Of a stretch of 64,000 nucleotides of DNA, positions 2,728 to 50,002 are shown in pieces. The stretch spans positions 2,418,001 to 2,482,000 of the forward strand of contig JACGCM010000560.1 of the NCBI GenBank assembly GCA_014058105.1, read 5' to 3'. The DNA comes from Kingdonia uniflora. Lineage: Eukaryota; Streptophyta; Magnoliopsida; Ranunculales; Circaeasteraceae. The notes below the pieces were generated by a model. The model searched no databases and had not been told where the DNA came from. It worked only from the letters and a program-made list of their open reading frames with translations. Position 1 is the stretch's first letter; the number at the start of each line of letters is the position of its first letter. The position numbers and the translations under genes are program-made.

Positions 2728-3470
2728 CTCCTCTCTATGTTACATTATGCCCGACTACGATATTCTGTCATTGGCTTCTCAGAAATGTAGACCTCAGAGA
2801 TAACCTCGTAAGATTCGTACCTACAGGATTCCGTGGAGATTGACGGCCATTGCCTCCCTCAGAATTTCAATGTTAATGAGCTTCCATAGACCTCCAAGAT
2901 TTTCTTTGTAATCTTTAGGAACCTCTACAAAGTCTAATTATCTTCAAAATAATCATGAACATCTCAAATAAGTCTTGTGGCAACAAAGTCGAATAATTTT
3001 CATTTGATTTCTTCGCCGTCTTAGCTCTACTGGTACTGATCTATCTGAGGCTTTAGTATCTGCTGTAAATTATGATTTAGGCTCGGTGTTCTGATCGAGT
3101 TCTTCAATGACATTCTCTACGAATACAAGTTTATTCACCTCTGGCCCTAGTGCTATTACTAGCTTATTTATTTTCAATTCTCCATCCCCTACATCATCTA
3201 TACTTGGTTTTGGACTCGATTCATCTATTCTTGTGATTATAGGTTCTTCATCAAGGTCCATGTTTTTTATTTAAATTTAGCATCTGCGACGCCGTCTTTG
3301 GCCTCTTTTCTCTCAAGCTGGTTCTTTGTTTGGAACAACAATGAAACCTTTCGGTTCGACCATCCTAAGTAACGATCAGATGGACATTGAAGGCAGCATG
3401 GCTGAGGATATAGTACAAGCATCTATTTTAAATATTTGGTAACAGAGAACTTGGGGGTGAGCTTGACCAG
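2728..3470. other. Element B interior, no recognised gene
   Basis: This 0.7 kb carries no known domain. An open frame of 63 codons on the - strand (3070-3261) is acidic and unlike any family I know; it is short enough to be chance. Confidence 0.4.
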
Positions 3471-3474
3471 TATA

Positions 3475-4130
3475 TTACAGGTCGGTTATTGGTTTGTCCA
3501 ATTTGACCAACAAATTACATAATCTATTACAGATCAGTTATTGGTTTGTCCAATTTGACCAAACAGATTACATATTATAGGTCACTTATTGGTTCATCCC
3601 AATTCGACCACCCATCTAATACATTACAGGTCGGTTATTGGTTCGTCCAATTCAACCAAACAGATTGCATATTATAGGTCACTTATTGGTTAATCCCAAT
3701 TCGACCTACCCATCTAATATATTACAGGTCGGTTATTGGTTCGTCCAATTTGACCAAATAGATTAGATACTACAGGTTACTTATTGGATCATCCCAATTC
3801 GACCACCCATCTAATACATTACAGGTCGCTTATTGGTTCATCTCAATTCGACCAACTCATCTAGTACATTATAGGTCGGTTATTGGTTCGTCTAATTCGA
3901 CCAAGCAGATTACATATTATAGGTCAGTTATTGGTTCGCCCAATTCGACTAATCCATCTAATACATTACAGGTCGATAATTGGTTCATCTAATTTAACCA
4001 AACATATTTCATATTTCAGGTCCACAATTGGTTCATCCAATGCGACCAACGCATCTACTATATTATAACACATTTTCATGTCAACAATAGGTTCATTCAA
4101 ATTGGCCAAATAAATTACAAGTCAATCGAC
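3475..4130 (+). repeat. 49-bp tandem array in the 3' region of B
   Basis: About 13 copies of a 48-50 bp unit built on ggtcggttattggttcgtcc and aattcgacca. Copies start near 3480, 3532, 3580, 3629, 3677, 3727, 3775, 3824, 3874, 3922, 3971 and 4019. Two variants alternate (one with gattacatattata, one with catctaatacatta), giving a higher-order unit of about 98 bp. The array lies a short way upstream of the 3' LTR. Confidence 0.9.
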
Positions 4131-8693: not shown

Positions 8694-11138
8694 TGTAGTG
8701 TCCCATGAATTTCCGTTATATATTCATTTATATTCTTTCATTTTCATTCATCTGCATCCATACATTATGCATCCATATCATTGGCACCCTCATCTCATTT
8801 TCTTGTATTAGGACTTAGTATTCTTCTTTCTGTGGCTTGGGTGGTTTTGTGGTTTCTGGGTTTATTGCCTGGTGGTGGTTGTGTTCTATTTTGGGGAGCT
8901 TATGGTTAGCTAGGTATTGCTGTTGTTGTTTTTGGCTTGTGCGTGTTGAGTTATTTTGGCTTGAGGGTGATTGTGTGGATCTGAGCAGATTTAGGAATAT
9001 TCCAGTAGTCGTTCGGACGACATACATATTCGTTCGGACGACATAGATATTCGTTCGAACGAGTCGACTTGACTCCTGGAATTTGGCTCAAGATCTCCAA
9101 GTCGTTCGAACGACTTTTGTGTCCATTCGGACGACTGTGTCAATTCGCACAACCTCTTTTTCATTCGAGCGACCTTTTGAACGAAGTGACATAACCCCAG
9201 GAGTGTTGGGCCAAGGAAATGTTTTCGCTCGAATGACCATTCGAATAGTTGCTTTTTTGCTGTTAGTCGTTCGAACGACAATCGTATTCCTTGTTTGCTT
9301 TTATCTTTCCTCTCCTTTTATTTTTGGTTAGTTCTTTTGAGAGATAGTATTGGAGAGAGCTTAGAGATAGAGTATTGGTGAGAGTTGTTGGAGAGACAGT
9401 CTAGAGAAAGAATTTCACCTTCATCTCCTTCCTTCATCAGCATTTCCGATTTTGGTAAGTTTTCCCTTTTCCCTTAACCCTAGTTTTCCTGATTCTCTTT
9501 ATTGGTGGCTTGGTTTCTATTGGTTTGGTTGTGTTGTTGCTAGGATAGCATTGATTGATTGTTATTGTGATTATCTTATTCAGTAGTTTTCTGGGTTCCG
9601 GTTGCCAGGATTCGAGCTTTATATCAGGCGAGTGGTCCTTCACTATTAAATTCCTATAGTAGTTAACCTGTGTTAATTAGAATTGTGCTTTGGCACTGAG
9701 GTGTTTGTGATTTAGTTAACGTAAAATTGTTTATTTTGTCGTGGTTGTTGTATTTGGTTTCTATTGCATCGATTCCTAATATTAGGCGCTAGAGTTGTGC
9801 CTCTCGGGTATCTTTTAGGAAGTCATGCATTAGTGGGGTATTCATGTAGCCGTGTTCATGAGTTTGGTGTTTCAACCTTTAGAGGCTGATGGGTTGGGTT
9901 ACCTTATTTCAGTCCTGAGACACTGATGGGTTTGGATATTTTGACTGGAGGTCACTGTTCATTTGTGGTAGGATTGTTTACCATCCTTTTAGGCAGATGG
10001 TTTTCCTATGTGTGTGCTGGCCATAGTTGGGGCTATGCGTTGGGATTGTGTACCCTTTCTCAGGCAGGGGTTATCCTAAGTGTGTTGGCCGTGTCGGCGG
10101 CCTTTGTGTTTTAATCCTTGGGATCTGCTTGCGGCGTGATTTTTATATTCTATTAACTTAACGGGATCGGATACATAAAGTCACTCCAAATCGGCCGGCC
10201 CCGGAAAGGTTAGGAGGATTCCTAGCTCGGACTGAAATAGTATAGTGAGTTCTGGCTAAGATACTATCATACCTGAATACCATCCTAGAGTATGGAATGG
10301 TATGAGATAGTTCTCCTCTTGTACCGGCACTATCCTGAGAAGTTGAAATACCTTAGAATTCGAATAATATGAGGGCGATGGTTCCTCGAGTTGAAACCTG
10401 TATTCACTCTGATCAAGTGGTAATATCCTAGCCGGGTCGAGCTTGAAACAAATCAAACCCATTGTATCCATCTGAGGTCTCTTTAAGGTTATATTGAATT
10501 AGTGGTTGATCTGTCCAATACTCTTATTTTTAGAGCCTAGTTCTTGACTTCATGATAGTATAAACATTCACTTTAGGACCACTTTAGAATCATATCATAT
10601 TTCATCGCATCATATCAAATTACATCATCATATCTCGATTCCTTTTCCTCTTCCCCTGTAGGTCCTCCCACTATATTCTTTAACTTATATATATCGCAGT
10701 GCCTTTTACATTTCTGATCTCATGCACCTCTTCTTCTTTCTCTGTACTAGTTCTATTAGTATGTTGTTTAACACTGTTGGGTTATTAGTGAGCCGTGGTT
10801 TTGCTCACTCTCGTATTTTCCCCCCTTTCAGAGGCAGGGTAGTATCTGGTTCTTGCTAAGGGTTTTCAGCTGTGTTGGAGAGTATTCTTGTAGGTTCTCA
10901 GCCTTGGACGCTGTTTTGTATTCGAGTTATGGTATTTACATTTTGGTGATGTATATATATCTTTTGCTTCCGCTTCTTTTCCTTTTTCTCTGATGATATT
11001 GCTATAATCAATGACTGAGCCTGAACTTTTTTATGGCTTGCCTATTTGTAGGGGTGAATCAGTTGGGTTCCCCGACCTGCACATTCCGAATGATAGTTAT
11101 TGGTCTACCTACCGATTATTAGATTTTGGCATGTGACA
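8694..11138 (+). repeat. Element K 5' LTR (2445 bp)
   Basis: It starts tgtagtgtccc and ends atgtgaca and matches 15913-18442 throughout. Open frames within it occur on both strands and are not conserved as proteins between the two LTRs. It carries the palindrome cluster at 9008-9279. Confidence 0.95.
9008..9279. promoter_or_regulatory. TTCGAA palindrome cluster in the K 5' LTR
   Basis: Perfect GTCGTTCGAACGAC at 9101-9114 and 9266-9279, with near copies at 9008, 9029, 9050, 9123 and 9165. An aatttggctcaagatctcc block lies just before 9101. No function is known to me; a binding site or a structural role is inference. Confidence 0.5.
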
Positions 11139-11142: not shown

Positions 11143-11160
11143 TGGTATCAGAGCCGTAGG
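11143..11160 (+). other. Primer-binding site of K (initiator tRNA-Met type)
   Basis: TGGTATCAGAGCCGTAGG lies four bases after the LTR. It begins with the classic TGGTATCAGAGC complement of the initiator tRNA-Met 3' end used by most plant chromoviruses and copia elements. Confidence 0.9.
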
Positions 11161-11291: not shown

Positions 11292-12500
11292 ATGGCTAGC
11301 GGTGACAGAGGTAGAGGTGACAGATGTGGCAGAGGCAGAGGCCATACAGTTGGCCATGGCCACAGAGGTTTTTGCAGTGGTGTACTTACCGACAAGCCTA
11401 TGCTTAGTTAGGAGAGTTTGGGGTCAGTCCCGATTGATCAAGGTGTTCCTTCAGCTCCAGTAGTTCCAGAGCAGCCTGTCGTTTTTCCTACCCCAGCTAT
11501 TCCTAGTATTTCAGCATAGATGAGGCAGTTTATGGAAAGCTTCACGGCTCATTTTCAGCAGGCCAGGTGCCCAGCGGCTAGAGAATATAGTTACCTCGGG
11601 CTGGTCCAGAAATACAAGCATCCGACATTTTCTGACACAACAGTTCCATCTGAGGCAGAGACTTGGTTCAAGTCCATAGAGAAGACTTTGAATTCTATGA
11701 AGTGTCCATAGGATCAGAGGGTGACACTTGCCACCTATCTATTGCAGGGTGAGGCAGATCATTGGTGGGATACCGCCAAGAGGACGATTGCGGAGACTCA
11801 AATACTTTGGGCATTCTTTCAGGACCGATTCTTCGAGCAATATTTTCCGCAGAGTTATAGAGACTCCTACAACTTTGAGTTCTATATGCTTGAGCAGGGT
11901 GATATGAGTATCTCTCATTACGACCAGTGATTTAGCAAGCTCTCCCGTTATGTTTCGTTTATTGTTTAGGATGAGGGATAGCGTAAGATGGAATTTTTGA
12001 AGGGTCTTCGTCCGTACTTTAGGAACTTCTTGTTTGCTTTAGGTGCTAGTTCTTACAGAGAGGTTTTGTCTAAAGCCTTGGCTATATAGCAGAACGACAT
12101 TGAGGATCGCAAATCTAGAGACGTGAGGAACCAGGGGAGGCATGATCAGAGGCCTGATAAAGGTAAGATAGTTGAGGCGCTGTTTCAGAACTGGGGTCCC
12201 AAGAGGCAGAGGTTTGGTACTATAGAGAATGTGTCAGCTAGAGTTACTGCTGGGCAACAATCAGATAGACCACTGCTTAGTTCCGGTCAGTGCTAGAACA
12301 ACGGGGAGAAGGGACATGCTAAGAGGTTTTATCCTAAACTTGTCAGAGGTCCACAACCATTGAGACAGTTTTAGGGCCCAGTTAGTCACCAGCCACGACC
12401 ACAGTAGCTTCAACAGTTTTAGCAGAGATAGTTTCAGGGTCCGCAGAATAGGCAGATTCTTTTGTGTCCTTAGGGCGGTCAGAGGCAGATTATTCCAGGT
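11292..12500 (+). pseudogene. Element K gag pseudogene
   Basis: The ATG at 11292 starts a G/R-rich tail (RGRGDR...RGRG), then the retrotransposon gag domain: SEAETWFKSIEKTLNSM and YLLQGEADHWWDTAKR near 11660-11790. A degenerate zinc knuckle (GEKGHAKRF) lies near 12310, with two of its cysteines lost. All is in one frame with the downstream protease. About a dozen stops interrupt it, nearly all TAG where the family has Gln (CAG), for example at 11409, 11517 and 11709. Confidence 0.85.
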
Positions 12501-14567
12501 CTTCCGAATGGACAGAGGCCGTTGTATCCTAGTCAGCAGCAGGGCCATGGACAGAGTAGGATGTACGCAGCTAGGAGGCGAGATGCTCGCGCTGTTCCAC
12601 CTGTAATAGAAGGTACGATTCACATTTCTTTTTCGCCTGCTCGTGTTCTTTTCGATTCTAGTGCATCGCATTCATTCATATCATATGCATTCCTCTGCAC
12701 TATTGGTTTTGAGTCTTCCTTATTGCATGATGAGATTTCTGTGGGTACTCCTCTCGATTCTTTGATTTTTATTTCCCATATTTGTAGAGATTGCCCGATA
12801 GTTATGTGTAGTTGCGTTCTTTCAGCAGACTTGTTGGTACTACCGATGCATGAGTTTGACATTATCTTGGGTATGGATTAGTTGTCGACGCATCGAGTTA
12901 CCTTGGATTGTTTTGAGAAGACAGCTACTTTCAGTATTCTTGGTGAGAAGCAGTTTGTGTTCATTGTCAATACTATCCCGATGGTGTGTGATTTTTCAGA
13001 TGTTTTCCAGCAGATACCTAGTTTGCCGCCGACTAGAAAGATTGATTTTAGTATAGACCTTTTACCTGGTACAGCTCTGATTTCGAAGGCTCCGTATCGC
13101 ATGGCACCTGTCAAACTGAAAGAGTTATATGATCAGATTTATGAGTTGATGGAGCTGAAATTCATCCGGCCAAGTACTTCACCGTGCGGAGCTTCAGTAT
13201 TATTTGCGAAGAAGAAGGACGGGTCTATGCACCTATGTATTGATTACCGCGAGTTAAACAAAGTCACAATTAAGAATAAGTATCCCTTACCTAGGATCGA
13301 GGACTTGTTTGACCAGCTTCGGGGAGCACAATTCTTTTCGAAGATTGATCTTAGATTAGATTACCATTAGTTGAGGATCAAGAAGGAGGATGTTTTGAAG
13401 ACATCATTTCGGACTCGTTACGGACACTATGATTTTAAGGTTATGTCGTTTGGTTTGACAAACGCGCCCGCAGCTTTTATGGATTTGATGAACTGAGTTT
13501 TCTGACCTTATCTCAACCGATTCGTTATTGTATTCGCGGACGACATTTTGATCTATTCAATGACCGAGGCTGAACACGAGGAACACTTGAAGATTGCATT
13601 ACAGACTTTGAGGGAGAATACATTATTTGCAAAATTTGAGAAGTGCGACTTTTGGCACAAAGAGGTGAAATTCATAGGGCATGTTGTGTCCAAGGATAGA
13701 ATTGTAGTAGATCCATCTAAGGTTGAGGCCATTAAAGATTGGGTTCAGCCGACGAACGTTACAGAGATTCGTAGCTTTTTGGGATAGGCCGGCTATTATC
13801 GCAGATTCATCAAGGGCTTTTCACGGATTGCAGCTCCTTTGACTCGCTTGACGTAGAATTATGTTCGATTAATTTGGGATGGCAGATGCGATTCAGCTTT
13901 CGTAGAGTTAAAGAAGAGATTGACTACAACACCTGTTCTTATTGTTCCATCCAGTGGGCAGAAGTACATGGTTTACAACGAGGCTTTGCTCAATGGGCTG
14001 GGTTGTGTTCTGATGCAGGAGGGAAAGGTAGTGGCTTATGCTTCAAGATAACTTAAGGTGCACGAGAGGAACTATCCTACTCATGACCTCGAGTTGGCAG
14101 CTGTGGTATTTACTTTGAAGATTTGGCGTCATTATCTTTAGGGGGAGAGGTTCGAGCTCTTTTCGGATCATAAGAGTTTAAAATACCTTTTCTCACAGAA
14201 AGAGCTAAACATGAGACAACGCCGGTGGATGGAATTCTTGAAGGATTATGATGTTGATTTACAGTATCACCCAGGGAAGGTGAATGTGGTGGCTGACGCT
14301 TTGAGCCGTTTGCCTAGGAAAATTCTTGTACGTCTGATGATTCATGAGTGGTTGATGCTTCGTGATGTGGTAGATTTTGGGTTGAGTTTGTGTTCACGGG
14401 GTACGGGTAGTTTTATTGCTAATTTGGGAGTTCAGCCTTTATTGATCTCTCGGATTATAGAAGCACAACAACAGGATGCTAGGTTGCAGTCTTGGGCATC
14501 AGATAATAGCAGACCAGATTAAACAGTTAGCTCAAATTGCAGCATCAGATTCAGGGGCAGATTATGC
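12501..14567 (+). pseudogene. Element K protease, reverse transcriptase and RNase H pseudogene
   Basis: The protease reads VLFDSSASHSFIS (12645-12685); the active-site DSG has become DSS. HEFDIILGMD closes the domain. RT begins near 13050 ([16 protein letters not shown]), with [34 protein letters not shown] and the catalytic box FADDILIYS near 13540. RNase H follows with YNEALLNGLGCVLMQ, HDLELAAVVFTLKIWRHYL and [14 protein letters not shown] (14265-14310). The frame is that of gag. Stops include TAG at 12879 (family Trp) and 13368 (family Gln) and two TGA near 13495-13505 (family Arg). Confidence 0.9.
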
Positions 14568-15864
14568 ATGCCAGACTCAGAGGTGATGAAGCGTAAGATT
14601 TTTAGCGAGGCTCATGGTTCGAGGTACACTAATCATCCAGGCTGTACTAAGATGTATCAGGACTTGGAAGATACATTACTGGTGGGACAACATAAAGCGA
14701 GAGATAGCCAAGTTTGTTTCTAGGTGTCTTACATGTCAACAGGTGAAAGCCGAACACCAGAAACTGGCGGGGAAGCTTAAACCTTTGCAGATTCCAGAGT
14801 GGAAGTGGGTGCATGTGATGATGGATTTCATTTCGGGATTGCCGTAGACGAAGAAGAACCATGATTCTATTTGGGTGATTGTAGACCGATTGACTAAATC
14901 AGCACATTTCATTCCGATTCGTAAGACTCTGGTGGTTGACGAGCTTAGGAGATTATATGTGAAAGATATAGTACGTCTATACGGGGCTCCGGTGTCTAAA
15001 ATGTTAGATCAAGATGTCAGATTTACCGGTAACTTTTGGAAGAGCTTCCAACGAGCTTTGGATATCAGATTAGATTTCAGCACAACATTTTACCCCCAGA
15101 CCGACGGTCAGACAAAGAGAGTGAACCATATTCTTGAGGATATGCTTAGGGATTGTGTTTTGGACTTCAAGGGTAGCTGGGACGAGTACTTACCTTGGGC
15201 AAAATTTACATGCAACAACAGCTTTCAGTCGAGCATCGGTATGGCACCTTATGAGGCTTTATATGGTAGACCATGCAGATCACTGCTGAGTTTGGCAGAG
15301 GTTGGCGAGCAGAATTTACTGGGGCCAGACTTGGTTCGTGAGACTACTGAGGCAGTTACTATTATCAGAGATCGATTACGTACAACTCAAAGACGACAGA
15401 AGAGTTATGTCGACATCCGCAGGAGATCTCTAGAGTTTGAAATCGGTGATCATGTTTTGCTGAAGGTTTCTCCGATGAAGGGCGTGATGCGTTTCAGTAA
15501 GAAAGGAAAGTTGGCTCCGAGGTTTATTGGACCTTTTGAGATTCTTGCCAGTGTTGGAGAGTTGGCTTACCGTTTGGCATTGCCGGCACAACTGAGTCGA
15601 GGTCACAATGTATTTTATGTATTGATGCTTAGGAAGTATGGACGGGATCCTACTCATGTGATTGATTGGGAGCACCTAGAGGTTTAGGAAGATGCCTCGT
15701 ACATAGAACATCCGGTGTATATTTTGGACCGTGAGGAGAAGATTTTTTGCAGTAAGGTTAATCCTTTTGTGAAGGTTCAGTGGACTCACCATGATCCAAA
15801 TGAGGCATCTTGGGAATTAGGGGTGGATGTGAGTGGCCACTATCCTCATTTATTCTCGAGCTGA
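14568..15864 (+). pseudogene. Element K integrase with chromodomain-like tail
   Basis: The zinc domain reads EAHGSRYTNHPG and CLTCQQVKAEH (HHCC), with a +1 frameshift between them near 14680. The catalytic core has MMDFISGLP and DQDVRFTGNFW, but the third acidic residue is lost: QTDGQTKRVNHI has Lys where the family has Glu. A GPFEILASVGELAYRLALP block (the C-terminal GPY/F module) is followed by VYILDREEKI...VKVQWTHHDPNEASWEL, a chromodomain-like tail. TAG stops lie at 14845 and 15688; the native stop is TGA at 15862. The purine-rich tract aggagggcagaa precedes the 3' LTR. Confidence 0.9.
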
Positions 15865-15912: not shown

Positions 15913-18442
15913 TGTAGTGTCCCGTGAATTTCTGTTATTTATTCATTTCTATTCCTTCATTTTCATTTATCTGCATCCATACATTATGCATCCATATCAT
16001 TGGCACCCCATTCTCATTTTCTAGTATCAGGTATTAGTATTCTTCTTTCTGTGGTTTGGGTGGTTTTGTGGTTTCTGGGTTGGTTGCCTGGTGGTGGTTG
16101 TGTTCTATTTTGGGGAGTCTGTTGTTGGCTAGGTATTGTTGTTGTTGTTTTTGGCTAGTGCGCGTTGAGTTGTTTTGGCTTGAGGGCGATCGTGTGGACC
16201 TGAGAAAATTAGGGAATTTTTTAGTAGTTGCTTGTCAGTAGTCGTTCGAACGACATACATATTTGTTCGAACGAGTCGACTTATCTTCTGAAATTTGGCC
16301 CAAGATCTCCAAGTCATTCGAGCGACTTCTGTGTCCATTCAAACGACTGTATCCATTCGCACGACCTCTTTTTTATTCGAATGACCATTCAAACAAAGTG
16401 AGAAATCCCCTGGAGTGTTGGCCCAAGGAAATGCTTACGTTCTAACGACCATTCGAATAGTTGCCTTTTTTCCGTTAGTCGTTCGAAAGACTTGGTATTC
16501 GTTCGAACGACAATCGTATTCCTTGTTTGCTTTTATCTTTCATCTCCTTTCATTTTGGGTTAGTTCTTTTGAGAAAGAGTGTTAGAGAGAGCTTTGAGAG
16601 AGAGTGTTGGTGAGAGTTGTTGGAGAGAGAGTCTAGAGATAGGATTTCACCTTCATCTCCTTCCTTCGTCAGCATTTCCGATTTTGGTATGTTTCCCCTT
16701 TTCCCTTAACCTTAGTATTCCTGATTCTCTTAATTGGTGGCTTGGTTTCGATTGGTTTGGTTGAGTTGTTGTTAGGATAACATTGATTGATTATTGTTGT
16801 GATTGTCTGATTAAGTAGTTTCTGGGTTTCTGTTGCCGAGGGGTGGAACTAGGTTTTGGAGTGCGAATCGTGATTTTTGCCAGGATTCGAGCTTTATATC
16901 AGGGTAGTGTCCCTTCACTATTAAATTCCTATACTAGTTAACCTGAGTTAGTTAGAATTGTGCTTTGGCACTGAGGTGTTTATGATTTAGTTAACTTATA
17001 ATTGTTCATTTTGTCGTGGTTGCTGTATTTGTTTTCTTTTGCATCGATTCCTATTATTAGGCATTAGAGTTGTGCCTCTCGGGTGTCTTTTAGGAAGTCA
17101 TTCATTAGTGGGGTATCTTTGTAGCCTTGTTCATGAGTTCGGTATTTTTGCCTTTAGAGGCCGATGGGTTGGGCTGCTGTGTTTCAGCCCTGAGAGACTG
17201 ATGGGTTTGGATGTTGTGACTGGGGGTCACTGTTGATCTGTGGCAAGATTGTTAACCATCCTCTGAGGCAGATGGTTTTCCTATGTGTGTGCTGGTCATA
17301 GTTAGGGTTGTGCGTTAGGATTGTGTACCCTTTCTCAGGCAGGTGTAATCCTAAGTGTGCTGGCCGCGTCGGCGGCCTTGTGTTATGATCCTTGGGATCT
17401 GTTTACGGTGTGAGTTTTATATTCTTTTAACTTAACGGGATCGGATTCATAAAATCACTCCAAATCGGCCGGCCCCGATAGGTTAGAAGGATTCCTAGCT
17501 TGGGCTGAAATAGTATGATGAGTTCTGGCTGAGATACTATCATACCTGAATACCATCCTGGAGTTTGGAATGGTATGTGATAGTTCCCCTCTGGTGCCAA
17601 CACTATCCTGAGAGGTTGAAATACCTTGGAATTCGAATAGTATGAGGGCGATGGCTCCTCGGGTTGAAACCCCTATTCACTCTGATCACGTGGTAATATC
17701 CTAGTCGGGTCGAGCTTGAAACAAATCAAACCCATTGTATCCATCTGAGGTCTCTTTAAGGTTATATTACATTAGTGGCTGATCATCCCATACTCTGAAT
17801 TTTAGGGCCTAGTTCTTGACTTCATGATAGCATAAACATTCACTTTAGGACCATTTTAGAATTATATCATATTTCATCGCATCATATCACATCACATCAG
17901 CATATCTCGATTCCTTTTCCTCTTCCCCTGTAGGTCCTTCTACTCTATTCTTTAACTTATATTTATCGCAGTGCATTTTACATTCCTTATCTCATGCACC
18001 TCTTCTTCTTTCTCTGCACTAGTTTTATTAGTATGTTGTTTAACACTGTTGGGTTATTAGTGAGCCGTGGTTTTGCTCACTCTCGTATTTTCCCCCCTTT
18101 CAGAGGCAGGGTAGTAGCTGGTTCTTGCTGAGGGTTTTTAGCTGTGCTGCTGACGATTTTGGTTACTGCTGAGCGGTGTTGGAGAGTATTCTTGTAGGTT
18201 CCTAACTTTGGACGTTGTTCTGTATTCGAGTTATTGTATTTACATTTTGGTGATGTATATATATCTTTTGCTTCGGCTTCTTTTCCTTTTACTCTGAGTA
18301 TATTTCTATAGTCAATGACCGGGCCTGAACTTGTCTATGGCTTGGTTGTTTGTGGGGGTAAATCGGTTGGATTCTCTGACCTGCACATTCTGAATGATAG
18401 TAATTGGTCTTGTTACCTATTATTAGATTTTGGGGTGTGACA
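15913..18442 (+). repeat. Element K 3' LTR (2530 bp)
   Basis: It is the partner of the 5' LTR, starting tgtagtgtccc and ending gtgtgaca. It is 85 bp longer because of segments absent from the 5' copy, for example near 16840 and 18145. Palindromes are at 16241-16511. Confidence 0.95.
16241..16511. promoter_or_regulatory. TTCGAA palindrome cluster in the K 3' LTR
   Basis: Perfect GTCGTTCGAACGAC at 16241-16254 and TTCGTTCGAACGAC ending at 16511, with decayed copies between (16264, 16313, 16481). The aatttggcccaagatctcc block lies at about 16291. Confidence 0.5.
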
Positions 18443-18624: not shown

Positions 18625-19569
18625 TGAAATTTTGAACTAATTTAGATTAACCAATTTTGAAAAATTGAGGTCAAAGTTGAAAGGTGCGATACTCCTTGAA
18701 ACTAATTATTTAGTTTTAACCAAGCTCAAGTCGATATGATAAGCAATAAGGACTCAAAAACATAATAATAAGCAATTTTAACCCTTTGGGAAACACTTCT
18801 CAAGAAAAAAAACCCACAGGTCACTTTTGAATCGCCCGACAACTAATAATTCACTATTAAAACAAAATTACAATAATTCAATTACTTACAAACTCGATAA
18901 GCACATCCCGTGGTTACCTATCTTCTAATTGAACTCCTCACAATCAATTCCCCATTTTTGTAATGCCCATCATTTTCGCAATGCCTCGCTTCGATTCCCC
19001 GTCAAAGCATGCAAACTTGAAACTCACAAGCTTTTTAAATCAAGATTAGGTTTCCTAAATCTTTGATTGATTCAATTTTAGTTTAACTTCGCATCAAATC
19101 GCTCGCTAAAATCTCTTCTCTCTAAGATATTATGCCCTTGAAAAGTTTCTTTTAGAAGAGGTAAAAAAAATAAAATAAGAAAGGATGTCTTTTATCAAAA
19201 AACTATAAACCCAAACATTGTTCGAACTGATATATAATCCGTTCGAACAAACAAGGTTCTATTCGAACAGAACCAAAGATCTAATTCAAAGAAACAGTGG
19301 TTTGAGTGAAATTTTTGAACAGAAAGAAAAAGTTTGTTCGAACATAAGCCTATTTCCTTAAAAATAAAACATGATTCCTTTTTTTAACCTGTTGTATAAT
19401 ACTAATGGCTTGTACTTTTATAGTGAAGAGGTACAAACCCATGCACCTGTTCATTGTCAGTCCAGTTGTAGTCATTCTACACACACTTTATGACGGCGAA
19501 GAACCACAAGGTAGTGCTGACACCTATTCTAGACACGAAATGACGCAAATTTCAAATATGGATGTTTCA
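18625..19569 (-). repeat. Element I 3' LTR (left)
   Basis: It aligns with 27079-28012 from tgaaattttgaactaattt to atggatgtttca. It holds gttcgaac-type motifs at about 19215-19345, a diverged form of the palindrome seen in K. Confidence 0.85.
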
Positions 19570-20129: not shown

Positions 20130-20640
20130 TTCCTTGCATGCATTGATATGATACTCCATCCCATCCTTCACAAGGTGATACTTGCAAGCTCTACGGTAAA
20201 GGATTACATCTCACTCCCAAAGATAAGGGCTACCCAAGATGACTTGATACACGTCCAACGAAACCGCCTCACATGTCACTTTGTCAATAAACTTCTTAGT
20301 AATCACAAACTTGAACGTACATTGCTTAGTGATCTTCAACTCTGTATCTTTTTAAATCTAACCCAAACCGGATGGCTTAAGGTGAGCCACAGTAGCCAAA
20401 CCTATCTTCTTCTCTACTGCCTCAGAAAATAAATTCTTCTGACTACCCGAATCAATGATGGCCTTGACTACGCTCTGCTTTACTTGAATGCTGACATAAA
20501 AAAGTTCTTCACAACTCGCTTCGTCGATAGTAGTAGGTTGCTTGAACATTAGAGAAAGCTTAGGATTTGGTTTATCTAAATCCGGAAGATTCACAATTGT
20601 TGCGGCTAATGCACGTTTCTCTTTCTTGCCCCTCTCCTCC
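20130..20640 (-). pseudogene. Element J protease pseudogene
   Basis: The frame 20358-20594 reads VSIQVKQSVVKAIIDSGSQ followed by KNLFSEAVEKKIGLAT. This is a retropepsin-like domain with the IDSGS active site, of the type with KNLxS after the Asp. It breaks at 20358, then a related frame continues with STFKF..KKFIDKV and LDVYQVILGSPYLW. Truncated before RT. Confidence 0.75.
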
Positions 20641-21704
20641 TTCGGCCGTAGCTCCGGATGAAGTTTCCAGCATTTATCTGAAATGTACCCATTAGCCTTA
20701 CAAGAATTATAGATATTCCCCTTGCATGAAGATCCCTCTCCTTTGGACTCCCCTTTCTAATCATACTTCTAAGTAGACTTGTACCCCGACTTGCTCTTGT
20801 CGTTTTCATGTACCCCTTCAAGTACTTGCCTTCAATAGAAATTGCTTTTAACGGTAGTAGCCTTGATATTTTCCACATTAAAGAGCTTTAATTCTCTTCT
20901 AATGGACTCCGAAAAACCTCACGCATATTTCATGAACACCTCGTACTCATCTACATCAATATCCAAAGCCAACGCTTTGTTATAAAACTCCGTAGTGAAC
21001 CGTTGAACGGTTTGCCCAATCCTTTGGCACAAATTGTACCATTTGTACCATCGCTCCTGTTCATACCCAATTGGATAGAATTACTTCCTTACCAAAACCT
21101 TAAATTCTTTCCAACTCAAACTTCCTATATCGTGGCATTTCTGATAGGATTTCCACCACGTTAGTGAATAACTTACAAATTTTAACGTAAAGAAACAAAT
21201 TTTTTGAGCGTTAAAATATTTATAAATGGAAAAATAGGTCTCTAACCTATCTAACCAATTATCCTACTTCTTGGCATCGACTAAACCATTGAATACCAAA
21301 AATTTAATTTTAAAGTCAATACGAAGATTACGCATAGAATTCATTGACTTACCAAAACCCGAGCGCTGTTTGACAGATTCGGCATCACTAGAATCACTAT
21401 CGATCTCTGCATTATCCACGTCTCTATCCACTTCTAGAATCCCTTTCATCTTCTAGTGGCCTCGCCGTATCACCGAAGCAGAAGCCTTCGCGAGGTTCGT
21501 GAGACACAGTTGTTCTTCTAACTCCCCTTCAGTAGAAGTTAGGTTAGAAACTATCATTTCTAAAGTCGTTAGTCGATCGTTGGAATCGTTCATCTCCAAA
21601 TTGTCATTTTTCTTTGAATTAGGTTTTCGATGAATCTTTAACGGACTCACTAGCTTCTCCTTCGTTTGCATGAAACGGTCACGTGTAGAGACCATAAACC
21701 ACAA
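20641..21704 (-). pseudogene. Element J gag pseudogene
   Basis: It starts at 21704 (MWFMVSTRDRFMQTKEK). A coiled or acidic linker (LEMIVSNLTSTEGELEEQL, DRDVDNAEIDSDSSDAESV) is followed by gag text FKIKFLVFNGLVDAKK...NWLDRLETYFSIYK and FVSYSLTWWKSYQ near 21150-21260. Remnants of a zinc region (SDKCWKLHPELRPK) lie near 20660. At least four stops and several frameshifts are present. Confidence 0.7.
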
Positions 21705-21712: not shown

Positions 21713-22364
21713 TGAGAATAGTAACTGGAAAACTTATTCCACTTAATCTACAATACGAATAGAGAAACCCTAGTTAGCAAAAAAGTATGAAGAACACCAA
21801 ATCGGTTTGAAAAAAATCCTTTAAGAGCTTCAATTGCTTAAACGAAGTTAATTACAATAGAATTACTCTAAACCCTAAGCTTCTCCCTCATAACATTAAT
21901 TGAACTAACATAAGCTAACAAAAAAAACCTAACTCCCCTTTATATACTAGGGAACTAAAAAAACCAGTAGATCGGATCTCGAGGCAAACCCACATCTTAG
22001 AATAATAACCTACGCTAAGCTCGTTCGAACGACATACAAACCCGTTCGAACGACGTCACGCTAATTGGTCTTGAACCCTAGAAACATGACAACTCATTCG
22101 AATGGCATCCAAGCTCGTTCAAACGAAATTTGTCTATGGGCCAAAATTCCAGGAAATTGAACATTCGTCGTTCGAACGAAAATAAAGAGTCGTTCGAACG
22201 ACTTCGGTTCCTATGCCAAATTCCAGGGAGTTGGAAAAGGATCGTTCGAATAACTCTAAACCTCATTCGAATGACTTTACGATAATTCCATTCTTAACAT
22301 ACGAGTTCCCTCAAAACGTCCCTAGATCTTCCTCGATCACTATCGGTTTTCTTCATACATAACA
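21713..22364 (-). repeat. Element J 5' LTR candidate
   Basis: The segment runs TGTTATG...TCTCA when read on the - strand, immediately upstream of gag. A TATA candidate (rc of ctttatata) lies near 21939. No second copy is in the window and no PBS could be assigned, so the ends are provisional. Confidence 0.5.
22020..22202. promoter_or_regulatory. TTCGAA palindrome cluster in the J LTR
   Basis: GTCGTTCGAACGAC is perfect at 22189-22202 and one base short at 22167-22180. CTCGTTCGAACGAC and CCCGTTCGAACGAC occur at about 22020 and 22041. A gccaaattccaggg block (reverse of the K block) follows at about 22218, with a second gccaaaattccagg at about 22141. Confidence 0.5.
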
Positions 22365-22399
22365 TCTTATAAATATTTTTGGCCCGATGAGAAAAAAAA

Positions 22400-23352
22400 A
22401 TTAAGTTTCTGCTGAGAGCAAACTAAATCAAGCTTGGACTTATCAAGTTCGTCCAAATTTGATTTTATTTTCTCCCTAGCATCATGAATTTCATTTTCTA
22501 TAATGATAAATGTCTTATGGAGACCTTTTTTCTCAAATTTAAGCTATTTTATCCCATGACTTGTATTATCGACCTTTTCCTTAAGTTCAGGCTTCAGTGT
22601 GTTAACTTGATTTTTCAATACCTTGTTTATTTTCCCAAGTTTAACAAACTTCACAAATATCCGAGCATATTAATCTTTAAGATTGGGGTCCTCGAACTTT
22701 CTATTTTTATGATTACTCTGACTTTCAACATGGTTTTCTAGCTCAAATGGGTCAAAATGATCATTCATAGAGTTTATTCTAGCAGGATACACACAATAGT
22801 TGTTATTTTTATTTTCTTAGGAATGGTCATTATTATCATCCCAAGTAGCAGTAATATTCATAGACTTATTATTACAACCAAATTTTTTAATGGGGCAACT
22901 ATGTGCATAGTGACCAAACTTATGATACTTATAACATTCAACTTGACTTAGGTCAGTGTCAAGGTTGGTCTATTGATTACTTGATTTAGTGTGATCATGG
23001 GTTCGTGACATATAATTTACTGATTGCCCTTGTTTTTGAAATTGATATTTTTTCACAAGGTTTTTAAGCTGGTTGCTTATAGAGGCAATCTGTGAATTCA
23101 TATCGAACCCATCATTATCATCTGAATCACATGAGTTGTCAGTTTCTTTGGTACCAGACGAAGAGGCAGAAGAAGACTTAAAAGCAACACTCTTATTCTT
23201 CTAAAGGTTTTTATATGCATCTCATGTTCAAATGTTCATAATTTTCCAGCAAGTGTGTGTAATTTCATTTTTATAAGATCTTCAGTTTCATCTATAACAT
23301 CACGCCAAGATTTAATACTCTTGGGAAGATACCTCAAAACTTTGTGAACAAT
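22400..23352 (-). pseudogene. Element I gag, C-terminal part
   Basis: Reading on the - strand from the CACTA junction: VHKVLRYLPKSIKSWRDVI and EDLIKMKLHTLAGKL, the conserved C-terminal part of copia gag (VRKVLRSLP type). A nucleocapsid knuckle follows near 22900 as CYKYHKFGHYAHSC, with His in place of the second Cys. Several frameshifts and stops are present. Confidence 0.65.
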
Positions 23353-23573
23353 ATTAGGGACATCTTTAGGGATGGCAAAAAAGTATCCCAAAAGGCTACT
23401 AATCCGTCTCTACAGCTATTAGGGACATCTTTAGGGATGGTTAAGTGTTGCCCCTTTAGGGTGGCATCCCAAATATAGTAGGGATGGACATATTTGTTTC
23501 TAATACTATTTAGGACGGCTTTTGAGACACCAAAAATTCATCTCTAAAGGTCTTTATTTTTCAATTCCTTTGG

Positions 23574-26140: not shown

Positions 26141-26740
26141 ATAAGGGACTGAATCCAAGCCATCCCAAATGTTTTATTATTAGAGACAAATTTTAGTCAG
26201 TCCATATTAATTGGTCCCTAATAATAACTTTTTTTGTAGTGAATGCCACTTAGTCTCGCATAGAACTCATCAAAGGGTTCATTCTCATCCATTTAAATAT
26301 TCTCAAATTGTGAGGTGAGAATTTACAATTTGCTTTCCTTAACTGTATCATCGCCTTTGTAAGTTTGAATTAATATGTCCCAAGCTTCTTTCAAAGTGGT
26401 ATAAGCAGATATGTGTTAAAACTCACTTGGGCTTACAGCCATAAGGGACTGAATCCTAGCCATCCCAAATGTTTTATTATTAGAGACAAATTTTAGTCAG
26501 TCCATATTAATTGGTCTCTAATAATAACTTTTTTTGTAGTGAATGCCACTTAGTCTCGCATAGAACTCATCAAAGGGTTCATTCTCATCCATTTAAATAT
26601 TCTCAAATTGTGAGGTGAGCATTTACAATTTGCTTTCCTTAACTGTATCATCGCCTTTGTAAGTTTGAATTAATATGTCCCAAGCTTCTTTCAAAGTGGT
26701 ATAAGCAGATATGTGTTAAAACTCACTTGGGCTTACAGCC
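26141..26740. repeat. Exact 300-bp tandem duplication across the CACTA end
   Basis: 26141-26440 and 26441-26740 are nearly identical (I see three or four differences). Each unit holds about 100 bp of CACTA end and 200 bp of copia gag. The second copy therefore carries a second CACTA terminus near 26541. Confidence 0.95.
26213..26241 (-). repeat. Right terminal inverted repeat of the CACTA element
   Basis: On the - strand it begins CACTACAAAAAAAG and continues into ttattattagggacc. The bases aat follow outside; aat also lies next to the left end at 23350-23352, but the missing gag there makes that match possibly accidental. Confidence 0.8.
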
Positions 26741-27056
26741 ATAATAACATTGCGACCCTTATTATTGTAGCAAGCAACATCCTTTTTATCCTTAGACCAT
26801 TAATTCCTAGACTTAAGGACCTCTTCAGCTTAATCACCCATTTCATTCATCATAGTAGGGTGCATCCATCTATCCTCGATCGCAATCCAGACATCTTCTT
26901 CAAATAATTATAATAATGCAACCACTCAGACTTTCTAATAAGGATAGTTTTTTCCATTGAAGAGGGACCGACGATTTATGGAACCTCAAATCTTTCAAAA
27001 TCTATTAATCTCAAATAATCAAGTTAGGATCCACGCTCATGTTGTTAAGCCCTGGA
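26242..27056 (-). pseudogene. Element I gag, N-terminal part
   Basis: Reading on the - strand from the PBS, broken frames give a copia gag of the UBN2 type: KKLGTY.FKLTKAMIQ and KLQMLTSQFENI, then MDENEPFDEFYARLSG at the junction with CACTA. The last 200 bp are duplicated (26441-26740). Frameshifts and stops rule out function. Confidence 0.65.
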
Positions 27057-28779: not shown

Positions 28780-29193
28780 TGTTAGGCCGCGCCGTGGAAG
28801 CCAAACTCTGATCGATTCGATTAAGGCTCAAATAAGCAAATAGGAATATACAACCAACAACCAACAACCAACAACAAGGATTTAAGATGGTTCGGCAATT
28901 GCCTATATCTACACAAAATAAAGATTGAGTTTATTCCATGACCAAGGTTATAATCTTTATAAACAATTGAAGTTTCTCTCACAAGAATTCCTCCCACAAA
29001 AGACCTTCCCAAAGGTGGCTTCTAAAAAACCTAACTTTCCCTTATATACTTGGGAGAGCCAAATACAATCTCTGGGATATCGAGGCAAACAGGAAGCTTC
29101 AAATAAATCTCACAAAATTAACCTCCGCATTGTCGTTCGAACGACTATGAGTCTTGTTTGAATGACATCAAGAAACTCAACACGCTGGTTAAG
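28780..29193 (-). repeat. F-type LTR fragment, duplicated
   Basis: It matches the first 410 bp of the LTR at 30010 (tgttaggccgcgccg...aacacgctgg) and then stops. A perfect GTCGTTCGAACGAC lies at 29132-29145. It came with the PPR piece in a tandem duplication of about 1.23 kb. Confidence 0.8.
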
Positions 29194-29236
29194 TTTTTTT
29201 TTCTTATTATAAATAAGTAACTTTATTTATGGAGGA

Positions 29237-30009: not shown

Positions 30010-30571
30010 TGTTAGGCCGCGCCGCGGATACCGAACTCTGATTGATTTGATTAGGGCACAAATAAACAAATAGGAATACATAATTAGCTACCAACAACAA
30101 GGATTTAAGGTGGTTCGGCAATTACCAACATCCACACATAATTAGAGAAAGAGTTTATTCCATGAGCAAGGTTACAATCTTTACAAACAATTGAGGTTTC
30201 TCTCACAAGAATTCCTCCCACAAATGATCTTCCCAAAGGTGGCTTCTAAAAAACCTAACTCCCCCTTATATACTTGGGATAGCCAAATACAATCACTCGG
30301 ATTACGAGGCAAACATGTAGCTTTAAAAAAATCTCTTAAAACTAACCTCCACATTGTTATTCGTATGACTATGAGTCTTGTTTGAATGACATCAAGCAGC
30401 TCAACACGCTGGATCTGTTTTTAGGCAAAAATGATTTTCGTTTGAAGGACTATCTGCCTCGTTCGAATGAATTTGAGTCTTCAAATATGATGAGGAAGAT
30501 TTGAGCCAAAATTCGAGGCTCGTTCGAAAGGCTATGAAGCCCATTTGATCAAACATAATAACAGTCTCATA
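30010..30571 (-). repeat. Element F 3' LTR (left)
   Basis: It begins tgttaggccgcgccg and aligns with the split right LTR. A TATA candidate (tatataagg on the - strand) is at 30264-30272. The block aagatttgagccaaaattcg with TTCGAA-type motifs lies at 30495-30530; this block is absent from the right LTR. Confidence 0.85.
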
Positions 30572-30940
30572 ATTCTCTACCTCGCTGATGACTTGCCCAA
30601 ATCTGAGCCAAATTTTGCCACCAACCAAATCAAACCCAAAATGAAACCCTCTTTCACCAAATGTTCCCAAGGACTCAACCAAACAAACGTCCTAAAGAAC
30701 ACAAATAAATAAGCGTCCCAAGGGACCAAAATCGACCAAATATCCCAAATGACCAAATCGAACAAAGCGTCCAAAAGACCAAATCCAAACAAACATCCCA
30801 AAGGACCCAGACCAAACAACATCTCAAAGGACTAAATTGACTATACCAAATCAATGGTTGCCTATGTACCGTGGATCAAGTTTCCCATAGTTCCCAGAAT
30901 CCATGTGAGGGGCCAAATCAATCCAAAGGATAAAGATGCA
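30572..30940 (-). other. F spacer with short degenerate repeats
   Basis: Recurrent caaa.gacca/ccaaaggacc units between 30650 and 30830 form a loose tandem pattern. A weak purine tract (reverse of attctctacctc) touches the LTR. No gene. Confidence 0.4.
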
Positions 30941-31943
30941 TCGTTCCCTTCTCACTATCTATATTAATCTCCCTACCAGGATTCCATTTGTACCATTATC
31001 TGGTAGACTTATTCAAACCTTATAACGATCAATTTATAAATTGACACATATAGTCTTCCTTTCTAGCAACTTTAAACCTACTCGGCTGAGTCATATAGAT
31101 CTCTTCCTTCAACTTCCTATGTAAGAACGCCATCTTAACATTGAGTTGTTACAACTCCAATTCAAATTCACTACCAATGCCAAAAGGATACGAATGGAGG
31201 ATTATTTTACCACTGGACTTTCTTTAAAGGGTAACATCATCTTGAGATCCTCTCATCCCGACATACTTACAAGAATGAATCACCAGTATACTACCCACCA
31301 TTATCCAAACGGTACAACTTGATCTTTCTGCCAGCTTGAGCCTCTATCAACTTCTTCCACCTTATGAAAATTTATAGGATTTCATTCTTCATCCTCATGG
31401 TATATACCCATACACGCCTAGAAAAGTCATCCACAAAAGATACAAAGTAATGTTACCCCCAAGTGATACATTCCTTAAAGGTCCCCAAACATCTGAGTTA
31501 ACATAATTATGGGTTTTACGAGTACGGTGGATAGCAGTGCCAAACTTTACCCTTATCTGCTTGCCCAGAACACAATGTTCACAGAAGTTTAATTTGCGCA
31601 CCTTAACACCTTTCAATATATCTTGGTTCGGGAGAACTCTCAAGAACTTTCCTCCGTATGCACGAAATGCATATGCCATAGCCGAGTGGTATCTCTTGAA
31701 GTGATCTCCCCATTTCCCGCGGTAGCAATATTACCAAGAATAGCGGTACCATCCAAATAGTACAAGTTATTACTTCTTCTTTGGCCGTTTAGCACAACCA
31801 TGACTCCCTTAAGAACCATCTTCACCCCATTCTCAGACACAACCTTATAGCCTTTCACCTCAAGTAAACTTGTTGAGATAGTATTCTTCTTCATCGTCAG
31901 GATATACCAAACTTCCTCAATCTCTTTTGTAATGGCCAAATTC
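30941..31943 (-). pseudogene. Element F protease to RT remnant
   Basis: On the - strand: KNTISTSLLEVKGYKVVSENG and RLWHMHFVH (pre-integrase), then CEHCVLGKQIRVKFG (integrase zinc part), THNYVNSDVWGPLRNVSLGG (first catalytic Asp in SDVWGP), then a jump to LNVKMAFLHRKLKEEIYMTQ, a copia RT motif. Most of the integrase core and RT is lost. The part before 31944 in element order lies beyond H. Confidence 0.8.
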
Positions 31944-31988
31944 TGTAAGCTTATAATGGCTTGAAATTTGCTATTACACCAATGAGCC

Positions 31989-32530
31989 TGTAATAATATT
32001 CTAATGGAAAGTAAGAAATGACACAGGTAATTTTAGCATGGAAAACCTCTGAATAGATAAAAAACCACGACCTTGAGTATAGGATTTTAATAAAAGTATC
32101 TTTATTGTTTTTGGCATATATCTTATTACAAGTGATCTCTAGATATAGAAATGTTTTAACCATGTAACTAAGAAGTTTGAATGGTACTGAGAATCTAGAA
32201 TAAGTAGTTTCTTGATGATCTCTTGTGTAATTTTATGTTCCATGTCTCTTTTAGAACTTTTCCTTTATATAGGCCTTCTCTGTAGCTCTTTATCGTGCTG
32301 GAGCATGTTTTCCAAATAATGTGGTTTGTGGCGGTTGACTAAGTAACTTACGAGTTCGTGAGAGACAGGTGTCTTTGAATGGATAAGGTTTTTCAGTTTA
32401 AGTTCGGCCCACGTTCTTAACAAGTTTACGGGGTAGGTTGGAATGTTGACAGGGGAAGTTATGTTAAAAATATGGGAGTCTGAGATGGAGGTGATTTGAA
32501 CTGATGACAGCTCATCTTTTGGTGAGATAA
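31989..32530 (-). repeat. Element H left LTR
   Basis: 32297-32530 matches 37036-37271 (ttctaaataatg.ggtt.gtggcggttgact ... ggtgagat). The left part has no partner here. The start TGTAATAATATTC was chosen by likeness to the LTR start of G. Confidence 0.6.
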
Positions 32531-37271: not shown

Positions 37272-38340
37272 AGGGATAGGTCCCTACATCTTTAGCCTGC
37301 CCATTGTGTTACTTTAGATGATAGTACCTATCCCACTTTTGAGTCAACAACACATGCACTCGATAATATAGTTAAAGAATACTCAAAATCATTACCTCCA
37401 CTTGTCATGTCTTGAGCAACATTTACCAAAGTGCTTGATTCCTTACATTTCTTCTTCTTAAGAAACACGAGACATTCATTTTTCTAATGACCCGTCTCTC
37501 TACAAAATGCATATTAGTCTTTTCCCAAGTTGTTACTATTTACACCACGATTTTTTTGAATTCAATTAAAAGTTATTACCACTATACTTCCCTTTGTCCG
37601 AAGACCTCCCTCTAGTCATCAATATCTCAAATATTGACTCCTAAGACTTACATTTTTTCATCCTCCAGTACCCATTGTTCACCACCGTCGTAGTCACATC
37701 TAAGTATTACAATGAACTCTTCCCGAACGTTATCATTCTAATGAAATGTTCGAACTCTTCGGGAAGCAATTTTAAGAACAAAAGTACTTTTTCTTCATCG
37801 CCAACAATTTTCTCTAGATTCGCCAAGTCGGCTAATCACTTGGTAAAATTATTTAAGTAGTCTGACATAAAAATCCCTTGTCTTGTCGTGAAGCGATAAA
37901 ACTTCCTCTTCAAATCGAGTCAATTTTGGATGTTTTTCACCAAATACTTCTCCTCAAGAATTCTCCAAAAAAATTTGTTGAGGTTTCATTCATTATAAGG
38001 TATTTTATATCTCGAGCAAGACATAAGCAAATTTGACCACAAACCCTCTTGCTGATCTTCTTTCAAGCACTCTCATCTGCCTGATCATCCGGTTTGTCTT
38101 CCAGTACCTCATCTAAGTCTTGTTAACTTAGCAAATTAATAACCTCGTATCGCCACATGCCAAAGTTGTTGGTGTCGTTGAATTTCTCAACTTTTATATT
38201 TACATTGTTAAATATCACCATTATATTTCATTTAGGCACCGAGGAACTACGTTCATCACCTTCTACCATGGTTCCCCTAATTTTTATACATTAACCAAAA
38301 TCAAAAATCCGAATAAATTCAAGATAAGTTGACGTTACCA
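37272..38340 (-). pseudogene. Element F gag remnant
   Basis: On the - strand the order from the PBS is a copia gag without a clean frame. Recognisable text includes the Ser/Leu-rich middle near 37700-37960 (rc of ...ttccaagtgattagccgacttggcgaatct), a Cys/His knuckle area near 37480 (rc of gtctctctacaaaatgc) and the LDSG-type protease start near 37330 (HMCC.LKSGIG). Heavily mutated. Confidence 0.45.
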
Positions 38341-38365
38341 CAATTTTGAGCACCACCGAGGAAAC

Positions 38366-38383
38366 AACCTCGCTCTGATACCA
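38366..38383 (-). other. Primer-binding site of F
   Basis: On the - strand TGGTATCAGAGCGAGGTT, initiator tRNA-Met type, next to the right LTR of F. Confidence 0.9.
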
Positions 38384-38384
38384 A

Positions 38385-38599
38385 TGGTTGAGCCTTGCCG
38401 TGAAAGCCAAACTTTTATCGATAAGATTAAGGTACAAACAGGCAAATAGGAATAGATAATCAACAACCAACAATAAGGTTTAAAGGTTATTCAGCAATTG
38501 CCTACATCCACACAAAATAGAGAGAGTTTATTCCAAGACTAAGGTTACAATTTTTACAAACGATTAAAGTTGCTCTTTAAAGAATTCCTCCCACTAAAG
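38385..38599 (-). repeat. Element F 5' LTR, inner part
   Basis: It matches the start of the left LTR (ggcaaataggaata, caacaaccaacaa.aagg, gagtttattcca, gaattcctccca) and is cut at the G insertion. Confidence 0.85.
38595..38599. other. Target-site duplication of G
   Basis: taaag before TGTAG at 38600 and taaag after CTACA at 50487-50491. Perfect; it shows G inserted into the F LTR as one event. Confidence 0.95.
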
Positions 38600-39083
38600 T
38601 GTAGTGGCGTATTTTCTGGAAGGAAAATCTTCACCAATACTTATTCGTAAAGAGAATGTAATATAGCTAGATAAAACATGATTTTATGTGAAAAACTCAG
38701 TAAAGGCTGAGAAAAACCATGTCCTTTAAGAGAATTTTTAGGTAAAATCCAGTAAGATGCTAGTTATTACACATTTTAGAGTGATGTTGGGTTATAGAAG
38801 TAAGAATAGCAAGAGATTGCAGTCCTGTAGAATCTATTATCTGCCTGTATTTATAGTCATACATGCAATTTTACAAAAATAAAGAAATAGTCTCCTATTC
38901 TGGGAGAGTGGGCAAACTTTGTGGATCTCTAACAGTTCTTTCTTGACCAAGCTTCAACGGCTACTTTTGGCAAGTTGAGGACTTATAGTAACTTCTCGAA
39001 AGATGGACTTCGATCATGTATGGCTGTCTTCGACTACACTATGCTGGCTTACTCTTGTCGAATCTGGGGAATATGCTACTACA
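38600..39083 (-). repeat. Element G 3' LTR (left)
   Basis: Begins TGTAGTGGCG, ends CTACTACA; 484 bp, same length as the right copy. TATA candidate (TATAAATA on the - strand) at 38848-38855. Confidence 0.95.
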
Positions 39084-42660: not shown

Positions 42661-42719
42661 TTGAATTGTGTGAATGATATGTAAGTGTTTCTAACTTGTT
42701 TATGTTGTTTGCAATGTTA

Positions 42720-44040: not shown

Positions 44041-44460
44041 AGACTGTGTTTATTTGAGGAAGGATATAAAAATGGTCAGTGGGACCGAAACAATTTAATT
44101 CGCAGTATTGTGGTTAAACAATTTGGTGCTGCTACAAAACTTTTTTACTCGTGAAATAATTATGTGCACTTGTTTTGTAAATAGTTCTAAGTAGCAGATT
44201 GGATAAAATAATTTTGATTGAATGTGACTATAGATCGAGCAGATAAGTGAGGAACACTTGCTTCCGTGATATGTGAAAGATGGCCATAAAATGGCAAGTA
44301 ATGAGAATGAGTACTAGATGTATATCTTTAGATGGGTATCTAGATTTAGAATTGAGAAGAACAAGAGCCCTCTTAGAGGTTGTTCAATAAGTAAAGAGCG
44401 CAAAGTAGAATATCTTATAATTGGATATTGTTCGTATAAAATTTGAATGATAGGCTTTAG

Positions 44461-50000: not shown

Positions 50001-50002
50001 AT

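Follow-up and report, generated by a model that had tools for sequence, protein, structure and literature searches.

How did one 14-bp palindrome, GTCGTTCGAACGAC, come to stand in the LTRs of retrotransposons that belong to different superfamilies? The question is raised by a stretch of 64,000 nucleotides of Kingdonia uniflora DNA (the window, to which all coordinates refer). A sequence-only reading of the window had placed the palindrome in the LTRs of three elements, K, J, and F, and had proposed a shared regulatory site, a shared binding protein, or the exchange of LTR pieces. We examined these proposals computationally.

The palindrome-bearing elements

Element K is assigned to Ty3 by its protein remnants and its primer-binding site. 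Self-alignment delimited a 5' LTR at 8694-11138 (+), which starts with TGTAGTGTCCC and ends with TGTGACA, and a 3' LTR at 15913-18442 (+), giving LTR lengths of about 2.45-2.5 kb. A sequence match to a primer-binding site, TGGTATCAGAGCC, which we take to be of the initiator-Met type, lies at 11143-11155 (+). The protein fragments at 12474-15687 (+) were analyzed with hmmscan and matched retroviral protease (RVP_2, E = 2e-28), RNase H (RT_RNaseH, 3.5e-8), the Tf2-1-type SH3 domain (SH3_Tf2-1, 5e-24), and, weakly and below cut-off, reverse transcriptase (RVT_1, 1.6e-4). Membership in Ty3 is thus indicated by the protease, the RNase H, the integrase C-terminal domain, the LTR pair, and the primer-binding site. 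When the K integrase was used as a query, none of the organism-labelled proteins among the matches listed (120 of 7897) came from Kingdonia, and no relative was found in the viral collection IMG/VR.

Element F, on the minus strand, is assigned to Ty1/copia on the same two kinds of evidence. A leader and copia-type gag remnant occupies 37280-38370 (-), and fragments of GAG-pre-integrase, the start of integrase (by eye), and copia reverse transcriptase occupy 30980-32232 (-). The profile matches (Retrotran_gag_2, 5e-5; gag_pre-integrs, 1e-4; RVT_2, 2e-5) were all three below the curated cut-offs, the fragments being short and broken and two of them typed from frames. The LTR end at 38385 is directly followed by the primer-binding site TTGGTATCAGAGC (38372-38384, -). 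A nested element at 38597-50486 divides the 5' LTR, F3, into a first part at 50484-50790 (-) and a second part at 38385-38599 (-). We read the segment at 30010-30600 (-) as the 3' LTR, F2, the outer limit of its U3 being uncertain. Self-alignment revealed a truncated second copy of the F LTR, F1, at 28780-29198 (-), which we read as a copy of the LTR tail accompanied by about 0.7 kb of flank. The tandem duplication of LTR tail and flank (28050-28780/29269-30010) measures about 1.2 kb at about 84% identity; on the plus strand the flank looks by eye like a fragment of what is presumably a pentatricopeptide-repeat gene. Beside F3, 50900-51800 resembles by eye a PIF/Harbinger transposase remnant.

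Element J is truncated and probably belongs to Ty3, as suggested by gag and protease fragments at 20358-21704 (-) whose matches to Ty3_capsid (1e-3) and Asp_protease (4.5e-5) both fall below the curated cut-offs. At E<=0.001, a search of 5.8 billion proteins with the gag-protease segment 20358-20756 gave four homologues; each came from Kingdonia uniflora, at 65-75% identity over 33-81% of the query. The U3 of J was placed at 21947-22299 (-), its start being set at a TG that comes after sequence taken by eye for copia-like gag. The earlier placement of the palindrome-bearing elements in different superfamilies therefore stands for K (Ty3) versus F (Ty1/copia), while the Ty3 placement of J is only probable.

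Other repeats were seen in the window. A tandem array at 3469-4067, rich in dyads and built of 97-, 147-, and 195-bp units on GGTCGGTTATTGGTTCGTCCAATTCGACC, lies between the 702 and 4308 repeats. A seven-copy 60-bp tandem repeat at 44396-44982, most of which reads through as an open frame on the minus strand, follows a stretch that resembles by eye the end of an integrase. At 26141-26744 a 300-bp unit is present in two tandem copies, which are 99% identical and apparently younger than the surrounding elements.

Distribution of the palindrome

Exact copies of GTCGTTCGAACGAC were recovered at 9101, 9266, 16241, 22189, and 29132, the five positions given previously. At up to two mismatches the window holds 14 copies versus 0.04 expected from dinucleotide shuffles, a number reached in none of 100 shuffles, which bears out the prior view that recurrence of such a 14-mer within 64 kb by chance is improbable. 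Among the 12- and 14-bp palindromes of the window, GTCGTTCGAACGAC alone has more than two copies.

These 14 copies fall in the K LTRs (nine), the J U3 (four), and the F LTR pieces (one); there are none in the LTRs of a further family, I, none in four additional repeat pairs treated as LTRs, and none in the remaining 52,105 bp. Within the window the palindrome thus occurs at this level only in LTR stretches belonging to K, J, and F, and the contrary case, in which the motif would be equally common outside LTRs, does not hold there. Counted at 0, 1, 2, 3, and 4 mismatches, the K LTRs (4977 bp) have 3, 3, 3, 4, and 5 copies, the J U3 (352 bp) 1, 2, 1, 3, and 1, and the F LTR pieces (1572 bp) 1, 0, 0, 6, and 4; the two LTRs of K are non-independent evidence. 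The I LTRs (1877 bp) have a single copy, with four mismatches, the 702/4308 repeat pair has two with four mismatches, and the other three repeat pairs have none at up to four. In the remaining 52,105 bp we found one copy with three mismatches and five with four. A Markov model predicted about 1.2 copies with three mismatches and 9.5 with four for the window, and the copies outside LTRs are therefore attributed to chance; for the same reason, four-mismatch copies within LTRs count by their position only. Near copies had been said to cluster around each exact site, which is so for K and J; those of F are more decayed, with three to four mismatches in every copy except that at 29132.

Paired spacing and promoter context

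The palindromes of K, J, and F come as pairs about 21 bp apart. The array of the K 5' LTR, which is the span 9008-9279 (+) singled out by the sequence-only reading, has copies with up to four mismatches at 9008, 9029, 9050, 9101, 9122, 9160, 9224, and 9266, two of them exact, and includes the pairs 9029/9050 and 9101/9122. The array of the K 3' LTR (16241-16511, +) has copies at 16241, 16262, 16313, 16334, 16352, 16372, 16436, 16478, and 16498. The J array (22020-22275, -) consists of four pairs with internal spacings of 21, 21, 22, and 21 bp and a pair-to-pair period of 73-74 bp. F1 carries the single pair 29132/29153 (29132-29166, -), whose first member is exact and whose second has four mismatches; F2 (30356-30532, -) carries the pairs 30356/30377 and 30437/30458 and a further copy at 30519, all with three to four mismatches; and F3 carries the pairs 50620/50641 and 50703/50724.

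The palindrome core TTCGAA has 42 sites, which form eight pairs at 20-22 bp versus a mean of 0.075 under random placement, with at most two pairs in any of 2000 placements, and each of 15 other six-base palindromes in the window formed none. By a hand comparison of whole-array helical phasing, the J array fits multiples of 10.5 bp and the K and F arrays do not, and phasing of whole arrays is not claimed.

In J, 73 bp separate the end of the array from the downstream TATA box, TATATAAA (21939-21946), which lies within a core promoter block at 21922-21989 (-). In F1, F2, and F3 the arrays end 82-83 bp before the TATA box TATATAAG, located at 29041-29048 in F1; the corresponding core promoter blocks lie at 29024-29090 (-) in F1 and 30248-30314 (-) in F2, and the TATA block of F3 lies at 50518-50578 (-). 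In K, unlike J and F, the nearest TATAT is more than 300 bp after the array.

Family I had been credited with variants of the core. One I LTR indeed carries four GTTCGAA[C/T] cores within 19220-19343 (-), three of them at 20-21-bp steps: GTTCGAAC at 19220, 19241, and 19336, and GTTCGAAT at 19261. The other I LTR keeps only a single core, GTTCGAAT at 27709. The last core of the first LTR lies 23 bp before GATAAAAG, and the same spot in the other LTR reads TATAAAAG. The family I interior (22310-23537) resembles by eye a Sirevirus-type copia gag; three interior pieces lacked Pfam support, and one gag-like piece lacked a homologue.

Among the earlier proposals, a shared regulatory site is favored by the position of the palindromes, which in J and F, as in I, precede TATA boxes, and the spaced dyads are best read, from their arrangement in the DNA, as sites for a dimeric host factor. 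Capture by several LTRs of a satellite or minisatellite having no regulatory role seems very improbable to us. Tandem 21-bp units do occur at 9009-9062, and the number of units is unequal in the two LTRs of K, but no array was found outside LTR stretches in 52 kb, and chance capture would not be expected to place the arrays of J, F, and I ahead of a TATA box. The two LTRs of an element such as K are presumably identical at insertion; its 5' and 3' arrays now differ by whole 20-21-bp units at both array ends.

A second motif between the pairs

Between palindrome pairs in K, in J, and in one F LTR, F2, stands a further shared motif, CCTGGAATTT(T)GGCYCA (the second motif). In the K 5' LTR it reads CCTGGAATTTGGCTCAAG at 9075-9092 (+), between palindrome pairs, with a weaker copy (four mismatches) at 9197-9215 (+). 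Consensus scanning and alignment placed it also at 16287-16304 (+) and 16409-16427 (+) in the K 3' LTR, at 22210-22227 (-) and 22135-22153 (-) in J, and at 30500-30518 (-) in F2, where it reads CCTCGAATTTTGGCTCAAA and stands nearer the palindrome than do the K and J copies.

Of 33 cross-family spacer comparisons, a set that includes both K LTRs and is to that extent mutually non-independent, shuffling gave p<=0.01 for nine and p<=0.05 for 13. Five of the strongest, repeated with 20,000 shuffles, had p values of 5e-5 to 1.5e-4. A scan with two consensus forms at up to four mismatches yielded nine matches, eight of them at seven array places and one elsewhere (15194), against 0.25 and 0.55 expected per window; the forms were built from the same sequences and are not independent of them. 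The motif was missing from three of the ten spacers examined (J3, F2b, and F3b). A short spacer match between J and K noticed by eye, ACATACA, holds only with the elements in opposite orientation and was dropped.

Blocks shared between families

When the whole window was used as the target, J 22167-22227 (-) aligned with K 9075-9135 over 62 columns at 81% identity (E = 8e-9), and J 21922-21989 aligned with F2 30248-30314 over 68 columns at 78% (E = 8e-9). The J-K block contains two palindromes and one second motif. The J-F block is the TATA block and contains no palindrome, and the J-F similarity persisted when palindromes were masked, with scores of 51-62 versus a null maximum of 30 (30 shuffles each). 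With palindromes masked, neither K-J nor K-F similarity rose above 30 shuffles in about 1 kb around the arrays. K therefore shares only short pieces, which speaks against one long shared insertion having carried the motif into these elements. Masked similarities of J with I3 (37, null maximum 29), outside the J array, and of K3 with I3 (34, null maximum 31), just beyond the K array, were of AT-rich DNA and were not used.

The exchange of LTR pieces proposed previously gains support from J, whose K-like and F-like blocks are separate. J is thus a mosaic that combines an array unit like that of K with a core promoter like that of F, a structure that, to judge from the alignments, is poorly explained by independent gain of binding sites.

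Repeated independent gain is nonetheless the main rival. It holds that each family acquired sites for the same abundant host factor on its own, through duplication of chance half-sites, with no exchange of DNA. In keeping with it, the K core promoter lacks similarity to that of J or F, family I has only the GTTCGAAC core at similar spacing, and the COPIA heat elements offer a precedent (PMC5059998). The 68-bp J-F core block, by comparison, far exceeds one binding site, and the second motif is common to K, J, and F2. We regard such convergence as rather unlikely, if worth serious weight.

The mosaic also depends on what J is. Its promoter could be a copia-type, F-like LTR lying beside a Ty3 gag, in which case J and F would be related by descent within one superfamily and only the K-J match would cross superfamilies. 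The leader between the TATA box and gag holds no primer-binding site resembling TGGTATCAGAGC, self-alignment found no second J LTR in the window, and the Ty3 matches are weak. Set against this, the array, TATA box, and gag share a strand, about 250 bp separating the TATA box from the gag downstream, and the K-J match links a Ty3 LTR with another family either way. We consider this composite origin of J unlikely.

Decay of the copies and RNA folding

Among 36 palindrome copies with up to four mismatches, 34 of the 46 inner mismatches were CpG-type transitions; the proportion was 13 of 22 in copies with up to three mismatches and one of five in those with up to two. Comparison of the two K LTRs showed differences at 18 of 110 positions within palindromes and at 48 of 457 elsewhere, and there is therefore no sign of selection after insertion. 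A half-site asymmetry was set aside, since exclusion of the K3 and F1 copies left 12 versus 5 of 25 (p = 0.14).

The palindromes might instead work at the RNA level, forming hairpins or dimerization loops close to the 3' end of the element transcript, rather than as DNA sites for a protein. Folded as RNA, the J array was far more stable than its shuffles (z = -5.6, 0/200), though palindrome arrays are bound to fold well. Hairpin selection is opposed by the lack of mirrored change beyond chance in the 36 copies: none of the seven position pairs showed significant co-change. Positions 4 and 11 depart from the palindrome in 17 and seven copies, with paired changes in four (p = 0.43). The location upstream of TATA boxes and the spacing of about 21 bp also argue against a role in RNA, which we hold to be the least probable of the explanations considered.

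A model for the arrays

We favor the reading that the arrays make up a modular enhancer in U3 that serves a single host factor and has moved from one LTR family to another in part through recombination, and would put the probability of this reading at roughly 0.6. The palindrome would be the repeated unit of an enhancer upstream in the U3 of LTR promoters, each copy bound by one putative host DNA-binding protein, probably a dimer. At 21 bp, about two helical turns, neighboring dimers would lie on the same face of the DNA and could together raise transcription from the downstream TATA box, with a putative partner protein on the second motif between pairs. CPP/TCX, NAC, or MYB proteins are conceivable candidates for the palindrome-binding factor, and none is claimed.

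Recombination, such as template switching between co-expressed RNAs, may account in part for the spread of the module to K (Ty3), J (probably Ty3), and F (Ty1/copia). Such switching among co-packaged RNAs is a mechanism of recombination, and it is a plausible route of exchange here by analogy with the recombination of ONSEN members (PMC5668417) and the homogenization of regulatory sequences in pararetroviruses (PMC5491270). Later, the copy number of the arrays would have changed in 20-21-bp steps, followed by decay, largely through CpG mutation.

More tentatively, and somewhat short of an even chance in our estimation, a host-specific composite enhancer cassette, comprising pairs at about 21 bp and the second motif, with or without a core promoter, may circulate between Ty3 and Ty1/copia elements by recombination, placing unrelated families of a single plant genome under one host factor. 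If so, the transcriptional control of LTR retrotransposons would be tradable between groups as deeply divided as Ty3 and Ty1, several families could be released together by a single host factor, and LTR phylogenies drawn from regulatory regions would mislead. The palindrome itself provides a handle for identifying the factor by pull-down or DAP-seq.

Comparison with known systems

Literature searches with the strings GTTCGAAC plus retrotransposon and CGTTCGAACG plus motif or promoter returned only unrelated titles and abstract openings, and on the subjects of LTR motifs, U3 repeats, and recombination, none of the listed titles and abstract openings describes the motif. A search of IMG/VR for the paired palindrome pattern returned three contigs. 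One (L002) looks like a phage by its listed ORFs, as judged by eye, and the other two (L001 and L003), viewed over 601 bp each, bear no resemblance to these LTRs; all three were rejected as outside copies.

Heat-responsive elements occur in the LTRs of ONSEN and other COPIA families and were gained repeatedly in Brassicaceae (PMC5059998). Like the arrays here, these are short repeated sites for one factor in several LTR families, those of ONSEN arising by duplication. As defined there, a heat-responsive element has three or more adjacent nGAAn units (PMC5059998). The palindrome was rejected as such an element: its single TTC and single GAA are directly adjacent, lacking the two intervening bases of nTTCnnGAAn, and the next core is about 15 bp away. 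In further contrast to the COPIA elements, the module here spans Ty3 and Ty1 and is accompanied by a second motif and by promoter pieces common to families. LTR promoters such as that of Tnt1 also have tandem repeats in their U3, and in the portion of that account available to us these are not described as a palindrome common to superfamilies (PMC3601003).

Two systems bear on exchange. Partner plant pararetroviruses show concerted evolution of non-coding regulatory sequences (PMC5491270) and, as proposed here, recombine regulatory DNA between distinct reverse-transcribing elements in one plant host; in the pararetroviruses whole regions are highly similar, whereas here only pieces of 60-70 bp are, at about 80%. 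Members of ONSEN recombine during transposition bursts (PMC5668417), which indicates that co-expressed elements can recombine in transposition, as our reading of K, J, and F would have it; in ONSEN the exchange is within one family, whereas here it would be between superfamilies.
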